IMG/VR virus record: IMGVR_UViG_3300036790_000032
Location: 1 to 39,967 of that record
Source: a virus
Strand: one strand, 5' to 3'
Length of the DNA stretch: 39,967 nucleotides
The position numbers and the translations under genes are program-made. This document shows, piece by piece, positions 5,107-37,397 of the stretch; within the stretch, counting starts at the first letter, position 1, and every line of letters begins with the position of its first letter. Below the pieces are notes generated by a model that made no database searches, was not told the DNA's origin, and saw only the letters and a program-made list of their open reading frames with translations.

Positions 5107-6063
5107 ATGCGCGCACTGACTCTTGCAAATGCCCTGTCGCTGGCCAACGCCGGCACACTCGGTCCGTTCGATACGACCGCGACCAATGGCGGCGGCTCCG
5201 CGCCGGCCGTATTCACGACTGTCGGCTACACAGCCACCGTGAACGACATCGTAAAACTTGGTGGTACGCCGCCGACCGGCTTTACCGCCGGCACTTCGTA
5301 CCACGTTGTCAGTCCCTCGACCGACACCTACGAACTTTCGGCGACGCAGGGCGGCTCGGCCATCAACGGCACCGGCACCGGCACCAGCATTACCGCTACG
5401 ATCTATCCGGCCGCGGGCGGCACTGGTTCGAGCACTCCGGTCGATCTGCTCGATAGCGACAGCGTCACGACCGACCCGTACATTCAGGAATTTGTCAGCG
5501 GCGGCGGTACGTATACCGAAGCCAGCCCGGCCGTCTTCACATGGGGCGCCGGTGCAGGATTTATCTTCGCGGATGGCGACCCGGCCGTCATCGTGGACGG
5601 TACCGTCTCGACCGATTTCACGCTCGACACGCTGTACTATGTCATCAATTCGAACAGCGGCGCCGGCACTTTCGAGCTGGCCGCGACTTCTGGTGGCGAT
5701 CCCATCGATGCAGGCGCGGGCACTGGCTCGAATCTGCTGATCTTCGTGACCCACAACAGCGGCGGCGACGGCGTGACCAATTCGCCCGGCGCCCCGTTCC
5801 TGCCCGACTACAGCGGCGCTCTGGCCGTGTACCTGTCGTCGGATATCGCCAACGTGACCGTGTATGTCGAGGGCGCTGACGCCCTGGCCGACGGTTCCGC
5901 CGGCAGCTATGACTATGCGCTGAATGGCGCCGGTGGTCAGACTGTCGCTGGCTCAACTCTCTTCGCCGTCCTTTCGTGGCCGCAGTGGATTCGCGTGCGA
6001 TACGTGAATGCTGGCGGCGTCGGCGTCGGTACGGCGCAGGTTTCTGCGCTCGGCGTCGGTTAA
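5107..6063 (+). CDS. Virion protein with two copies of a beta-type repeat domain
   Basis: A 318-residue Gly/Thr/Ser-rich protein, probably all beta. Two copies of one domain are visible: residues about 32-100 (PPTGFTAGTSYHVV then YELSATQGGSAI) and about 139-215 (TLDTLYYVI then FELAATSGGDPI). The same motif occurs in the next gene and again in the gene at 7051. The C-terminal 90 residues form a separate cap domain ending in WIRVRYVN, also echoed in the next gene. This motif is common in phage head and tail surface proteins; location after the capsid suggests a head decoration or neck fibre. Clear AGGAG precedes the ATG. The exact role is not known. Confidence 0.65.
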   Translation: MRALTLANALSLANAGTLGPFDTTATNGGGSAPAVFTTVGYTATVNDIVKLGGTPPTGFTAGTSYHVVSPSTDTYELSATQGGSAINGTGTGTSITATIYPAAGGTGSSTPVDLLDSDSVTTDPYIQEFVSGGGTYTEASPAVFTWGAGAGFIFADGDPAVIVDGTVSTDFTLDTLYYVINSNSGAGTFELAATSGGDPIDAGAGTGSNLLIFVTHNSGGDGVTNSPGAPFLPDYSGALAVYLSSDIANVTVYVEGADALADGSAGSYDYALNGAGGQTVAGSTLFAVLSWPQWIRVRYVNAGGVGVGTAQVSALGVG

Positions 6064-27714: not shown

Positions 27715-27972
27715 TTAGAGGCACACCACGTAGACGGGCGGGTCGATGTCGAAGTCCATCAGCGGCTGGCCACCGCGCATGATGCACGAGCTGGCGTTGT
27801 CGATCCGCGCGTGGATCTCTTGTGCGTTGCCGAGCGGGTCTACGCCGGTAACTGCTGGCAAATACGTGTCAGTGATGCCGGTCTGATGTTCCAGATTGTC
27901 GATCAGCAATGCGGCAGCCGCGACCGCCAGAATTGCGATTGTGACTGAAACGACCCAGAATAATTTGTCCAT
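27715..27972 (-). CDS. Small membrane-anchored protein, unknown
   Basis: Not recognised. 85 residues; residues 3-25 form a membrane anchor (LFWVVSVTIAILAVAAAALL), the remainder is soluble with two cysteines (SSCIMRGG and VVCL at the end) that could form a disulfide in the periplasm. It starts two bases after the polymerase stop and ends two bases before the nuclease start. Another example of a membrane protein tucked into the replication genes. Confidence 0.6.
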   Translation of the reverse strand: MDKLFWVVSVTIAILAVAAAALLIDNLEHQTGITDTYLPAVTGVDPLGNAQEIHARIDNASSCIMRGGQPLMDFDIDPPVYVVCL

Positions 27973-27974
27973 AT

Positions 27975-30035
27975 TTATTTCCTAAACCTATACGCTGTGT
28001 AGCCTTTGGCTGCGAGCGGCAGCCCCGCGTTCCAACTGCAATTTGTCGCTAGCATTTCAATAAGTCGCTCGTGGGAATATGCCGGATCGTCAGGGGGTTC
28101 GCAGATAACGGAGTCATGTACAGTAAGAAGTGGGTTGGACCCCGCATCATCAATTCCTGGCAGCTTTTCTGCCAACTGATCTCGGGAAATTCCTTCATCA
28201 GCGTTTTGTACAAGGCGTCCACTATACGTTCGCAGTCGGCAAAACTGGTGGTTGTAGGGATTGACTCCCTGATAGGATATTCCGAATTCATCGAAGCGCG
28301 GCCCGGGGTAGAGAATGAACCGGCCGCTCGGCAAATGCATCCGCAGCCAATTGCCGCGCCGGTCGAATTTCAGCGGCCCGGCTTCGAATAGTCTGTCGGG
28401 CCGCATGATAGCGTTCTCCGCTGCCGCTTGCACAGCGTGCCAGAATTTCACCGTGGCGGGATGGGCCGAACGCCACATCAACACGAGGGACTGACATACA
28501 ATGAACTCCTTTTCGCAAAGATCGTAGGTCCGCTTCTTCTCGACTGCCCTGATCCACTTCTCACGAGCCTGAATCCTAACAGACGCGGGTAAGGTAGGCC
28601 AAGCCTTTTCTGCCATCTTCGCCAGATCCGTGCGATAGATCGCGGCCATGTTGACGAAGGCGCCGACGCCGCCGTAGTAGCCGCAGGCTAATTCAACAAC
28701 CTTGCCTTGCTGGCGTTCTTCGCTTTCGTCGCCGACTTCTTCCGGGTCGGCGAGGTTGAACAGCCGCGCGTAAGCCACTTTATACATATCGCTGCCGGTG
28801 CCGGCGTCGTAATCGCGGAATGCGTCGAGTTTCCACTGCTCGCCGGCCATCCACGGTAGGCCGCGCCCTTCGATGTTCGATAGATCCGCCACACAAAGCT
28901 TTCGACCGGGGCGTGCAATAATGACGCCACGCATTGCCGAAGCCGCAACGGCCATAGGCTCATCTGTAAGAAGCTCGCCGTCATCGTGCTTAACTGCTTC
29001 AATGAAGGCGTCGATTTCAGTTTGCTTATGCTTCGGCCGCATCAAATTATGAGGTTGGAATATCTTGCCCGCCCATCGGCCGGGGCGCGCGCCGTAGTAA
29101 AGCAGCGTACCATACAGGCTCCCGTTGACGTGGCACGCGATGACGCGCTGGTACTTCGTGGTCGAGGACTTCGAGGCTTGGAGCCGCATTCGCAGCAGCT
29201 CTTTCACCAACTCGGGCAGTTCGGGATCGGCAAGCCGGCGCTCGATAGTGTCCGCCGTAAGATCCGGTAGCGGCACGCCATACTGTTCCAGAAACATCTT
29301 GAGCCGGTTGCGCTGCGTGGTGGATTCCACTTCGCCATCGGTCAGCGCCGTCGTGATGCTTTTCAGGCGCGCTTTGGCGCGGGTGCAGGTTTTGACCATG
29401 CCGAGCGCCATCGGCAGATCGATCCCGAAACCGCGCGCATTCATCACGGCGTCGAGCGTGCGCAGCTTAGTCTCGAATGGCGTCTGATTCCATTTCGGAA
29501 TCAGCCGTACGCATTCGCGCATCGCGACGATATCCTGCCCGGCGTACTGGACGAATTCGGCCCATTCACGCGGGTGCGAGTGTCGGTCGTTGAAGCGCGG
29601 CGGATCGGACTTTAGGATCGGTACACAGAATAGTTTTATGTGCTCTTTACCGGCATGCTTCGCTAGCGCGGGCGGCAGCCGCAGGATCGCGCACAGCTTG
29701 TCCAGTCCGCCAGGGAGCGACGCCATGCGCGCGTAGGCTTGCGAGCAGCGCCAGTTCTCAATGGGTGGCTGCGGTAGCTCCGGGCACAGCGCGAGCGCGC
29801 CGCGGTCGAATTCATCACCGTGGCTAGTGATTTGATTACCGGGCTTTTTCGCCTCATTCAGTGCGGCGATTAGGCCACGCGGGGGTACCGGATCGCGCGT
29901 CCGGTCCCACACGCACACGTCGTCTTCTTCGATTGCCCACTGCACCATCAACACAGTGGCGCCGGAAAAATATTTGAACGTACCGTGCTTAATCGCAACG
30001 GTCGAGCGCGTTTCCGTGTCGATCCAAAGGTTCAT
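27975..30035 (-). CDS. polA: Family A DNA polymerase with 3'-5' exonuclease
   Basis: 686 residues from the ATG at 30035; upstream extension is rejected because the ATGA overlap marks this start. Exonuclease motifs: LWIDTET (Asp6, Glu8), SHGDEFDRGAL near 71-81 and YAGQD near 164-168. Polymerase motifs: A VADLSNIEGR (Asp384, Glu389), B R441-QQGK445 with GYYGG, and C LTVHDS (His640, Asp641). No 5' nuclease domain. Motif B has Leu449 where E. coli Pol I has the Phe762, as in a phage clade with GKVxEL. This is the replicative polymerase of the phage. It lies beside single-strand-binding, nuclease and helicase genes. Confidence 0.95.
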   Translation of the reverse strand: MNLWIDTETRSTVAIKHGTFKYFSGATVLMVQWAIEEDDVCVWDRTRDPVPPRGLIAALNEAKKPGNQITSHGDEFDRGALALCPELPQPPIENWRCSQAYARMASLPGGLDKLCAILRLPPALAKHAGKEHIKLFCVPILKSDPPRFNDRHSHPREWAEFVQYAGQDIVAMRECVRLIPKWNQTPFETKLRTLDAVMNARGFGIDLPMALGMVKTCTRAKARLKSITTALTDGEVESTTQRNRLKMFLEQYGVPLPDLTADTIERRLADPELPELVKELLRMRLQASKSSTTKYQRVIACHVNGSLYGTLLYYGARPGRWAGKIFQPHNLMRPKHKQTEIDAFIEAVKHDDGELLTDEPMAVAASAMRGVIIARPGRKLCVADLSNIEGRGLPWMAGEQWKLDAFRDYDAGTGSDMYKVAYARLFNLADPEEVGDESEERQQGKVVELACGYYGGVGAFVNMAAIYRTDLAKMAEKAWPTLPASVRIQAREKWIRAVEKKRTYDLCEKEFIVCQSLVLMWRSAHPATVKFWHAVQAAAENAIMRPDRLFEAGPLKFDRRGNWLRMHLPSGRFILYPGPRFDEFGISYQGVNPYNHQFCRLRTYSGRLVQNADEGISRDQLAEKLPGIDDAGSNPLLTVHDSVICEPPDDPAYSHERLIEMLATNCSWNAGLPLAAKGYTAYRFRK

Positions 30036-30103
30036 CGGGACATGTTCCACACGGTGCCGGCGACGAAGCACAGCGAGCCGATCAGGTAGAGCCAATTGCT
30101 CAT
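30032..30103 (-). CDS. 23-residue membrane microprotein coupled to the polymerase gene
   Basis: Starts at ATG 30103, four-base overlap (ATGA) with the stop of the 66-residue gene upstream, and ends with TGA 30034-30032, four-base overlap (ATGA) with the polymerase start. The peptide is a single hydrophobic helix WLYLIGSLCFVAGTVW with a short MSN start and NMSR end. Both ends being exact start/stop overlaps argues for a real gene. I recall similar tiny phage peptides. Its role is not known; it may be a membrane tether or merely a coupling element. Confidence 0.6.
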   Translation of the reverse strand: MSNWLYLIGSLCFVAGTVWNMSR

Positions 30104-30300
30104 ACGAAGATCGCCACGCCGGGCCTGACCAATTCCGTCGAGACGACGGTGCATCCTTCGTATTCGGCGAGCACGTCTACCAATAGCTCGGCGCACAGTG
30201 CTCCGTACATCGACGGGTGTATGTGCAGCTCGGCGGGAACAGCGGCGCCTGCACCCAAGAACTGGCGCTTGGCATCGTGAAGCAATTTGACTAGCGTCAT
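30100..30300 (-). CDS. Hypothetical protein, small phage replication-region family
   Basis: 66 residues from ATG at 30300 (a longer in-frame start at 30396 exists and is discussed as uncertain). Reads MTLVKLLHDAKRQFLGAG, then LHIHPSMYGALCAELLVDVL, then GCTVVSTELVRPGVAIFV: a small alpha/beta protein. The layout (LL-helix, L-x-I-x-P-x-MY-x-L, PGVAI strand) also occurs in the 103-residue protein at 36234, suggesting a distant relation. It heads a run of ATGA overlaps into the polymerase. Function unknown. Confidence 0.6.
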   Translation of the reverse strand: MTLVKLLHDAKRQFLGAGAAVPAELHIHPSMYGALCAELLVDVLAEYEGCTVVSTELVRPGVAIFV

Positions 30301-30488: not shown

Positions 30489-31043
30489 TTACGCCGTCAG
30501 ATCGTCCTCGACCGGCGCGCTGATCTCGTCGTACTCTTCCGGGTCCGCTGCCGAGCTGCCGCCCGCGAAGGCGTCACCGTCACGCACGAACTGGACGCCG
30601 CGCAGATCGCAACCCACACCCTTGTTGCCCTTCGCATAGGCGAAGAACTCCACGAGCAGGTTTACATAGCAGCCGCCATAAGGCTTGCCGTCGGACTGCT
30701 CCAGCGGGGTGCGATCCGGGCCGACCACTGTCGGGCGGCGCTTGGCGCGCGAGCTGATAAACCAGTTGCCTTCGTAGCCTTCGACATCGGGCTTGGTCGC
30801 GCCATCGCGCAGCGGCACTTTGCCGAGCATCTTCGCAGCCTTGATGATCGCGGACCAGTCCTTCGGCCACTTCGCTTTCGCGACGGCATCGATGGTGGCA
30901 TTGATCGCGGCGAACTGTGAATGAGTAGGCGGCAGAATGCCGATCGCAGAGAAGTACGGAGTCGGGTCGTTGCCGCCCGGAAACGGCTCAGGCACCCATA
31001 GCTTGGGGAACGCCAGCCGCACGTTAGAAATGGTCATTTTCAT
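30489..31043 (-). CDS. DUF2815 single-strand DNA-binding protein
   Basis: 184 residues, AAGGA before the ATG. Matches the DUF2815 phage family, single-strand DNA-binding proteins of OB-fold type: MKMTISNVRLAFPKLWVPEP, PYFSAIGILPP, KDWSAIIKAAKMLGKVPLRDG, GYEGNWFISSRAK, GGCYVNLLVEFFAY. The last 25 residues are acidic (DPEEYDEISAPVEDDLTA), like the partner-binding tail of bacterial SSB. The final VEDDLTA is repeated as VEEDLTA at the end of the DUF2800 protein. Protects ssDNA at the fork, next to polymerase and primase-helicase genes. Confidence 0.88.
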   Translation of the reverse strand: MKMTISNVRLAFPKLWVPEPFPGGNDPTPYFSAIGILPPTHSQFAAINATIDAVAKAKWPKDWSAIIKAAKMLGKVPLRDGATKPDVEGYEGNWFISSRAKRRPTVVGPDRTPLEQSDGKPYGGCYVNLLVEFFAYAKGNKGVGCDLRGVQFVRDGDAFAGGSSAADPEEYDEISAPVEDDLTA

Positions 31044-31291: not shown

Positions 31292-31555
31292 CTACAGCAG
31301 TTGGATCAGGCCGCGGCCCGATTCGGCGGCGTTGCGGTCCGCGTCAATCAATTGCTCGGCGGTCTTGAAGACCGCGAAGGCCAATCCGAGGCCGGCAGCG
31401 GGATCGGCCGGGTGCCCGCGGCGGATGTTGTTCACCACGCTTTCGAACTGGACGGCGACCGTCTTGGCGCGATGGCGCGATTCGGGCGGCAACCCGCGCA
31501 GCAGTTCGCCAATCTGATCGAGCGTAGTGCCGATGCTGTCGTTGAGTAGCGTCAT
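31292..31555 (-). CDS. Hypothetical helical protein
   Basis: 87 residues from the ATG that overlaps the 49-codon gene as ATGA; a longer upstream frame is rejected. Helical throughout (TTLDQIGELLRGLPPESRHR, VAVQFESVVNNIRRGHP, GLAFAVFKTAEQLIDADRNA) and ending in GLIQLL, an ending I have seen in several phage proteins. No motif for an enzyme or DNA binding. Next to replication genes. Confidence 0.55.
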   Translation of the reverse strand: MTLLNDSIGTTLDQIGELLRGLPPESRHRAKTVAVQFESVVNNIRRGHPADPAAGLGLAFAVFKTAEQLIDADRNAAESGRGLIQLL

Positions 31556-31701
31556 TTTCCGCGCTCCGCGATGACGGTAGCGATCAGCGCGCATCCGGCG
31601 AGCGCTACCAATAACCAGAATGGCCATGTTGCGGCAGGAACGTGCTGCGCCCAAATCACAATTGCGCCGGTAGAATAAACTTGCGCTGGATTGCATTTCA
31701 T
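31552..31701 (-). CDS. 49-residue membrane microprotein
   Basis: ATG 31701-31699 shares ATGA with the DUF2800 stop; TGA 31554-31552 shares ATGA with the next start. The 49 residues have a polar N-terminal part (MKCNPAQVYSTGAIVIWAQ) and one strong membrane helix (WPFWLLVALAGCALIATVIA) ending in ERGK. Too small for usual gene finders. Same design as the 23-residue gene before the polymerase and the 34-residue gene before DUF2800. Confidence 0.55.
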   Translation of the reverse strand: MKCNPAQVYSTGAIVIWAQHVPAATWPFWLLVALAGCALIATVIAERGK

Positions 31702-32972
31702 GCTGTCAGATCCTCTTCTACCTTGAATTCGTCTATGCTCGCCTCGCCGCTATACGCAGGCCGCGGATCGCTGCCAGGAACGACGCTGATTGAGCCCGGC
31801 TTCTGGCGGTAAAGCTGCACCAGCGGCGCCCACGCGGCCGCCTTCGTCTTCTTGCGGCCATTGATCTTCGTATCAGCCGCGGCCGGCGTCAGGATCTCGC
31901 GCGGCTTGAACGCGTTGTCGCCGAGCACTTCCGTCAGCGCGGTCTCGGCGATCTTCTCGTCGATCCACTCGCGGTTGCCGGCTTTGCCCTGCACCGTCTT
32001 GAACGGCAGCCCGTCGCTGCCGAGGATCGAAATCCCGCTGGTGACGCGCCGACGCAGTTCCGCGTCCACGGCCGCGCACCAGTCATAGATCAGACCGAGC
32101 GAGCTAGCCTTGCGGCCAAGCAATTCGTTGTCATCGGGAACTGTAGGGGCTGACATGGCCGGCGCGCTCCCATCATTGATTGCCTCAAACGCGAGCAGCA
32201 CTTCATTGCTGATGTGCCGTGACAGCTTGTTACAGCGCGCCTTGACCTTGCACCACTGGCACGTTTTTTCGGCCGGCGTGAGCTGCGTTTCGAGCTGTTC
32301 CTGATCCATTGTCCCGGCGCGCACGGCGTCGAGAATTTCCTTGGCGGCAGCCGCGGCATGCGCCGCGCCATACGCGAAGCCGGCTAGGGATTCGACTGAA
32401 ATCGTCCATTCGTCCAAGTGGTACAAGCGCGGCTGATCGATGACGATGGTTACGTTGTCGATCAGGCCGTCGAGCATGTAGGTCGCCATCGCGCCCGAGG
32501 CATAGCTCATGCCCTGCTCGTTCATTTCGGCGAAGACCTTGACGCCCTGCCCGTACTTCAGATCCTTGACCGTCAGGTGACGTTTGGGTAGGTCGATGAT
32601 GACCGCATCACCCGTGCCGAACTGTTTGGGTTGCCTGTAGACTTCGCTCATATCGAGCCGCTGCTCAACCAGCAGCGTACAGCCGGCGCCCATACGCATC
32701 AGCGTGTCGTCCACATAGGTTTGCACGTTGATGATCATTTCATCATCGACGGTGAAGACGCGTTCGCCGATCTGGATTTCCTCGCCGCGATAGAATTCGC
32801 ACGGCTTGCCATAGCGCAAGGCGCGATAACCGAGCTGGTGCGCGGCGTTGCCTTCGGCGCTGTACTCGCTATCCTCATTGGGTAGCCCATCTTCCATCGC
32901 GAGCGCACCGGCGCAATGCGCCCATCGGTGCATCGATGACGGACTGAAGAGTGCGTGTTCGCCGTCGCTCAT
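31698..32972 (-). CDS. DUF2800 nuclease, Cas4/RecB-like with Fe-S cysteines
   Basis: 424 residues. PD-(D/E)xK nuclease core: FGTGDAVIID (Asp122) and TVKDLKYGQG (Asp137, Lys139). Four cysteines are arranged as in AddB/Cas4 iron-sulfur staples: Cys20 in MHRWAHCAGA, and Cys238, Cys241, Cys247 in TCQWCKVKARC (C-x2-C-x5-C). Probably a single-strand-directed exonuclease working with the DUF2815 protein, the usual genomic partner. The C-terminus is acidic (KVEEDLTA) and matches the DUF2815 tip. Fe-S binding is inferred from spacing. Confidence 0.88.
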   Translation of the reverse strand: MSDGEHALFSPSSMHRWAHCAGALAMEDGLPNEDSEYSAEGNAAHQLGYRALRYGKPCEFYRGEEIQIGERVFTVDDEMIINVQTYVDDTLMRMGAGCTLLVEQRLDMSEVYRQPKQFGTGDAVIIDLPKRHLTVKDLKYGQGVKVFAEMNEQGMSYASGAMATYMLDGLIDNVTIVIDQPRLYHLDEWTISVESLAGFAYGAAHAAAAAKEILDAVRAGTMDQEQLETQLTPAEKTCQWCKVKARCNKLSRHISNEVLLAFEAINDGSAPAMSAPTVPDDNELLGRKASSLGLIYDWCAAVDAELRRRVTSGISILGSDGLPFKTVQGKAGNREWIDEKIAETALTEVLGDNAFKPREILTPAAADTKINGRKKTKAAAWAPLVQLYRQKPGSISVVPGSDPRPAYSGEASIDEFKVEEDLTA

Positions 32973-33073
32973 AGTTCACTCCATAGCTCGCAGCCGTAGT
33001 ACCACGCGAAGAACGGTATCATGACAATGACGATAATCATGACGAACGGGAAAATGATCAACTTGCGGATCAC
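32969..33073 (-). CDS. 34-residue membrane microprotein with GTG start
   Basis: GTG 33073-33071 overlaps the previous TGA (GTGA); its own TGA 32971-32969 overlaps the DUF2800 ATG (ATGA). The peptide has a basic start (IRKL) and one strongly hydrophobic helix (IIFPFVMIIVIVMIPFFAW), then YYGCELWSEL: inside-positive topology of a type II anchor. The only other reading of this DNA is a longer antisense-like frame that I reject. Unknown function. Confidence 0.6.
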   Translation of the reverse strand: MIRKLIIFPFVMIIVIVMIPFFAWYYGCELWSEL

Positions 33074-37126: not shown

Positions 37127-37329
37127 GAGTATTCGCGCTCCAATTTGGTAAGGTATGCCCCCAACTCGGCATCGGCTAGCTTCAGACGTAATTCGATTAC
37201 TTCGATATCTGACGGATCGCCGCCGCCTTTCCATGAATCATGAATGGCGGCATCGCTATAGGCGTCAATCAGATATCTAAGTTGCCGCCAGCGATTTTTC
37301 TTGAGCTGTTGTGAGCGGGATGTTTTCAT
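37123..37329 (-). CDS. Hypothetical helical protein
   Basis: 68 residues: a basic N-terminus (MKTSRSQQLKKNRWRQLRYL) and helices SDIEVIELRLKLADAELGA and YLTKLEREYS. Not recognised. ATGA overlap with both the gene before (23-codon microgene) and the gene after. Probably a small soluble accessory protein. Confidence 0.5.
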   Translation of the reverse strand: MKTSRSQQLKKNRWRQLRYLIDAYSDAAIHDSWKGGGDPSDIEVIELRLKLADAELGAYLTKLEREYS

Positions 37330-37397
37330 TTCTGCACCCCATATGGTGTCGGGCTGTCCGTGGTGGTATCGGAAAAGAAAGCCTTAACGTACTTCAT
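37326..37397 (-). CDS. 23-residue soluble microprotein
   Basis: ATG 37397-37395 overlaps the stop of the exported protein gene, and TGA 37328-37326 overlaps the ATG of the next gene, both as ATGA. The peptide begins MKYVKAFFSDTTTDSPTP and ends YGVQK; it has no hydrophobic helix. Exact double overlap and lack of any other use of this 72-base interval support translation. Function unknown; it may only couple translation of its neighbours. Confidence 0.45.
   Translation of the reverse strand: MKYVKAFFSDTTTDSPTPYGVQK

Follow-up and report, generated by a model that had tools for sequence, protein, structure and literature searches.

The window analysed here is a virus record of 39,967 bases in which a frame of 23 codons on the reverse strand (30032-30103, ATG to TGA) is enclosed by two larger genes. 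It encodes the peptide MSNWLYLIGSLCFVAGTVWNMSR, predicted to form a single membrane-spanning helix with a GSxCFxxGT core, and has homologous micro-ORFs elsewhere. Its ATG overlaps as ATGA with the stop codon of an upstream ORF of 66 amino acids (30100-30300, reverse strand), and its TGA overlaps likewise with the start of a family A DNA polymerase of the BPP-1/BcepC6B type (686 amino acids; 27975-30035, reverse strand). The reverse strand through this region reads GTATGAGCAATTGGCTC...TCCCGATGAACC. Both the frame and its ATGA overlaps had been reported in a first-pass annotation and are exactly confirmed by the sequence. Judged by hydrophobicity only, the best Kyte-Doolittle means of the peptide are 1.49 over 17 residues and 1.79 over 15 residues. 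The 66-amino-acid upstream protein matches no Pfam or PHROG family, and no relatives of it were found.

The same early block contains genes for an Enc34-type ssDNA-binding protein (SSB; 30489-31043; PF10991) and a DUF2800 exonuclease-like protein (31698-32972; PF10926), both on the reverse strand. The polymerase shares 45% identity with its counterpart in Bordetella phage BPP-1 and 40% with that in BcepC6B, and the replication modules of these two phages follow the same order as the window, i.e. DUF2800, Enc34-type SSB, a small gene, and family A polymerase. By contrast, the slot before the polymerase of BPP-1 is occupied by bbp41, which encodes a soluble, cysteine- and histidine-containing protein of 62 amino acids, and the microgene is absent from the BPP-1 and BcepC6B records. 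The first-pass annotation had counted six microgenes in the leftward block of the window. Under a strict rule, whereby a frame starts with ATG and each of its ends has a -4 or -1 overlap with a frame of 60 amino acids or more, three are found there (30032-30103, 31552-31701, and 37326-37397). The frame at 31552-31701 encodes a putative small membrane protein of 49 amino acids (MKCNPAQVYSTGAIVIWAQHVPAATWPFWLLVALAGCALIATVIAERGK) and is also locked at both ends, with ATGA at the DUF2800 end; that at 37326-37397 encodes a soluble-looking peptide of 23 amino acids (MKYVKAFFSDTTTDSPTPYGVQK) and has ATGA overlaps at both ends. Two other small genes are a very hydrophobic 34-amino-acid frame with a GTG start (32969-33073; VIRKLIIFPFVMIIVIVMIPFFAWYYGCELWSEL), which at its end overlaps DUF2800 by 4 nt, and a gene just downstream of the polymerase (27715-27972) for an 85-amino-acid protein with an N-terminal membrane helix. 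All four frames lie on the reverse strand.

In simulated spacers with the observed spacing and the base composition of the window, both ATGA overlaps together with an open frame occurred by chance at a rate of 1.8%. The geometry alone is therefore no proof of a gene, and the earlier statement that such positioning at both ends is improbable by chance was too strong as far as geometry is concerned. It is because of its conservation elsewhere that the microgene rises above chance, and the frame at 30032-30103 can with high probability be taken as a genuine gene, whose product is a membrane microprotein with one helix.

Scanning IMG/VR with patterns, and bacterial genomes with one profile, brought up 23 further distinct small frames that share the core of the window peptide without gaps; most are 23-32 codons long. 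The first degenerate DNA pattern (GSxCFxAGT) matched four stretches of IMG/VR, and three of these are micro-ORFs; with four more patterns, the family grew to some 20 distinct phage contigs. These five patterns caught the family only in part, and the IMG/VR contigs are unannotated. The pattern matches in L167, L206, L208, and L210 were judged to be due to chance and dropped, and that in L187 was omitted as ambiguous, since it reads inside a methylase frame. The family core is N-W-[LF]-Y-L-x-GS-x-C-F-x-x-GT-x-x-N-M; within its gapless alignment Y6, G9, F13, G16, and T17 do not vary, and S10 and C12 are almost constant. As a stand-alone frame in the range of 23-32 amino acids with the core Y-x2-GS-x-C-F-x2-GT-x2-N, the window frame falls within the definition of the family. 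Further examples are MANWFYLAGSLCFVAGTLWNIYHG (L166), MKNLSNWLYLAGSVCFFAGTVINMWRGQ (L169), and MANWFYLAGSVCFVLGTIINMVAR (L171), which start with GTG, and MSNWLYLVGSVCFLLGTIFNMVKR (L174) and MANYFYLAGSLCFLIGTIINMLAR (L184); the copy in L209 extends past the usual member length.

With a profile built without the window, the window frame scored 51.7 bits (E = 2.6e-15, searched in the six frames of the window), compared with a maximum of 11.3 bits among 66,314 reversed decoy frames. Each left-out member scored 33-61 bits in leave-one-out profiles. As the DNA patterns had been drawn from the window's own motif, conservation of the core is partly circular, and pattern-free positions were therefore tested separately; independent evidence comes only from these positions and from the bacterial genome copy described below. 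Among the four matches to the first pattern, the pattern-free positions matched the window with p ~5e-6 in L166 and L169 and p = 1.7e-4 in L168, and at chance level only in L167. Across the phage contigs, the microprotein family shows protein-level conservation.

When 398 genomes of the phylum to which Caballeronia arvi belongs (Pseudomonadota) were searched with a profile, one strong match (MGSLANWLYLIGSLCFVLGTVINMLPV) was obtained. This copy was found by the profile, not by a DNA pattern, and 17 of its 19 core residues are identical; over the 19 codons, nine differences from the window are synonymous and two are non-synonymous. The microgene is present in one of 199 genomes of the carrier's family, and inspection by eye of 19.5 kb around the copy revealed no obvious prophage genes. 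Sampled genomes of Bacillota, Actinomycetota, and Bacteroidota (phyla taken from MAG titles) gave no strong match, and plasmids gave a single match at chance level. Named phages (50,697 records) contained no match to the window peptide or the family consensus in tblastn searches with E up to 10, a limit at which nearly all members were detectable in a local test and a 24-amino-acid positive control was recovered. No family in PHROGs or NCBIfam matches the microprotein, and the strings of the core motif that were looked for did not occur in the papers searched. The family is apparently previously undescribed.

The neighbourhood of 21 members, including the window, was examined with mechanically called ORFs. 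A -4 overlap with the preceding gene exists in nine of them (window, L168, L169, L174, L176, L177, L182, L185, and L188) and with the following gene in eight (window, L169, L171, L184, L185, L186, L188, and L189), both ends being locked in four (window, L169, L185, and L188). Neighbours with Pfam matches encode N6/N4 methylases (L171, L174, and L184), RuvC (L181), Mom (L189), DUF4406 (L185 and L186), and DUF1937 (L175), and in L169 a DNA polymerase A directly precedes the microgene, which has 4-nt overlaps at both ends. By eye only, the next gene appears RuvC-like in L188 and NinB-like in L182. On contig L166, the microgene is accompanied by DUF2800, an Enc34-type SSB, and a distantly related polymerase. 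The microgene belongs to early DNA-metabolism blocks and, given that its neighbours vary among members, is not tied to a single partner gene.

Each of the 20 aligned members has a match to the Pfam domain YrhK (PF14145), in its second transmembrane half; the best E value is 3.3e-5. Scores of the window protein (17.9 bits) and of three other members (18.2, 13.5, and 20.7 bits) are below the gathering cut-off of 26.1. In a single hhalign comparison, the microprotein and the second helix of YrhK aligned with 90% probability (E = 1.4e-6). The microprotein carries the second-helix motif in that xWLFxIGSxxFxxRPxIR of YrhK aligns with the core NWLYLIGSLCFVxGTxxN, with GT taking the place of the RP motif. 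Unlike the microprotein, YrhK is a two-helix domain of about 57 residues, each helix having a WxxxGSxxF-type motif. YrhK proteins from bacterial genomes are hairpins in which both helices are present, whereas the window protein covers only profile positions 36-54 of 58 and is not a two-helix protein. The function of YrhK is not known; in B. subtilis the gene is part of the lysozyme-responsive sigV operon (PMC8287880). Most likely, the microprotein is a detached YrhK-like helix that would pack against another membrane protein, and the family may in turn hint at the role of this uncharacterised domain.

The distribution of the microgene is accessory. On balance, we consider it probable that the gene specifies an accessory single-span membrane microprotein of a phage-shared family which is produced from an early operon and may alter a host membrane protein. 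It would be made by translation coupled to the upstream gene, and the basic C-terminal end of most members (K or R in 21 of 24) suggests membrane insertion in an N-out/C-in orientation. The GSxxFxxGT helix face may then pack against a membrane protein, either the microprotein itself or more likely one of the host, in a way resembling one helix of the YrhK hairpin. Because the conserved positions are not significantly clustered on one helix face (p = 0.13), this packing face is put forward as a suggestion. The gene would travel as an accessory early-operon gene outside the polymerase machinery, and its likeliest use would be to alter a host membrane protein during infection. More tentatively, the members may represent a family of stand-alone YrhK helices that slot into 4-nt early-operon overlaps across unrelated phages and target a conserved host membrane protein.

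Alternatively, the microprotein might be a membrane-active toxin or a lysis or exclusion peptide that depolarises or blocks the membrane, e.g. against a superinfecting phage. Small toxins of this kind show only loosely conserved hydrophobicity, whereas specific residues of the microprotein (Y, GS, CF, GT, and N) are strongly conserved, and the microgene sits in replication or early blocks rather than next to lysis genes or an antitoxin RNA. The accessory distribution would suit such a function, as would the tiny size and the one hydrophobic span, in which the microprotein resembles DinQ and similar single-span toxic peptides of bacteria (PMC3567139); DinQ-type peptides, however, differ from it by their toxin/antisense-RNA arrangement. 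We regard this explanation as unlikely.

Very unlikely is the function suggested in the first-pass annotation, i.e. that the microprotein anchors the polymerase or replisome of the phage to the membrane or regulates it. It would agree with the position of the microgene directly before the polymerase in the window and directly after a family A polymerase in L169, and with its presence in the DUF2800/Enc34-SSB/polymerase module of L166. Yet a profile search detected the family in none of 44 whole records of polymerase relatives, and a replisome-anchor or polymerase-specific role is therefore not supported; moreover, most members adjoin other genes, i.e. those for methylases, RuvC, Mom, or DUF4406. 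A search for conserved tiny frames immediately upstream of related polymerases recovered none of this family, and no similar motif occurs near the polymerases of relatives fetched from viral and bacterial contigs. Of 155 relatives, 11 do have a short hydrophobic frame whose end coincides with the start of the polymerase, as compared with 0.9% of random points (a loose control, as random points are not gene starts), but these 11 frames are unrelated in sequence. In L122, an unrelated membrane frame of 30 amino acids (MNKHLLIEKIGFACCCVALTVLLALEIINK) overlaps the polymerase gene by 4 nt, so that various small membrane genes appear to occupy the position ahead of the polymerase. Within the 44 records, the microgene itself does not co-occur with the polymerase lineage, and it is probably not a polymerase accessory.

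It is highly improbable that the microgene is only a translational-coupling leader, with the peptide as a by-product and the ATGA overlaps passing ribosomes on to the polymerase. The ATGA at both ends and the same arrangement of overlaps in L169, L185, and L188 are compatible with this model, but a leader does not need the same amino-acid core across unrelated contexts, and several members have no downstream overlap. Of the earlier proposal that coupled translation tunes polymerase synthesis, the coupling fits the overlaps, whereas the tuning finds no support in that the polymerase relatives examined do without the microgene. The probability of a chance open frame is negligible: despite the simulated rate of double overlaps and the polymerases of relatives that have no adjoining microgene, it is contradicted by the score with the window-free profile.

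Frames of 23 codons are under the size limits of most gene callers, and the microprotein family, if genuine, would be among the smallest that are conserved at the sequence level. That so short a sequence is conserved in uncultivated phages with no relation to one another implies a common, specific target, and the core motif provides a direct handle for finding further members and the partner.

In contig L183, a close relative of L174 (92-97% identical DNA over aligned blocks), codon 4 of the microgene is a stop, which indicates that the protein can be lost and that, in this contig at least, the gene can be dispensed with. Another change, close to the end of the same copy, gives the impression of decay. 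The family-like peptide of L187 (35.5 bits; positions 5515-5549 of that contig, reverse strand) is read in another frame within the loop of a DNA methylase and may reflect either chance or overprinting.
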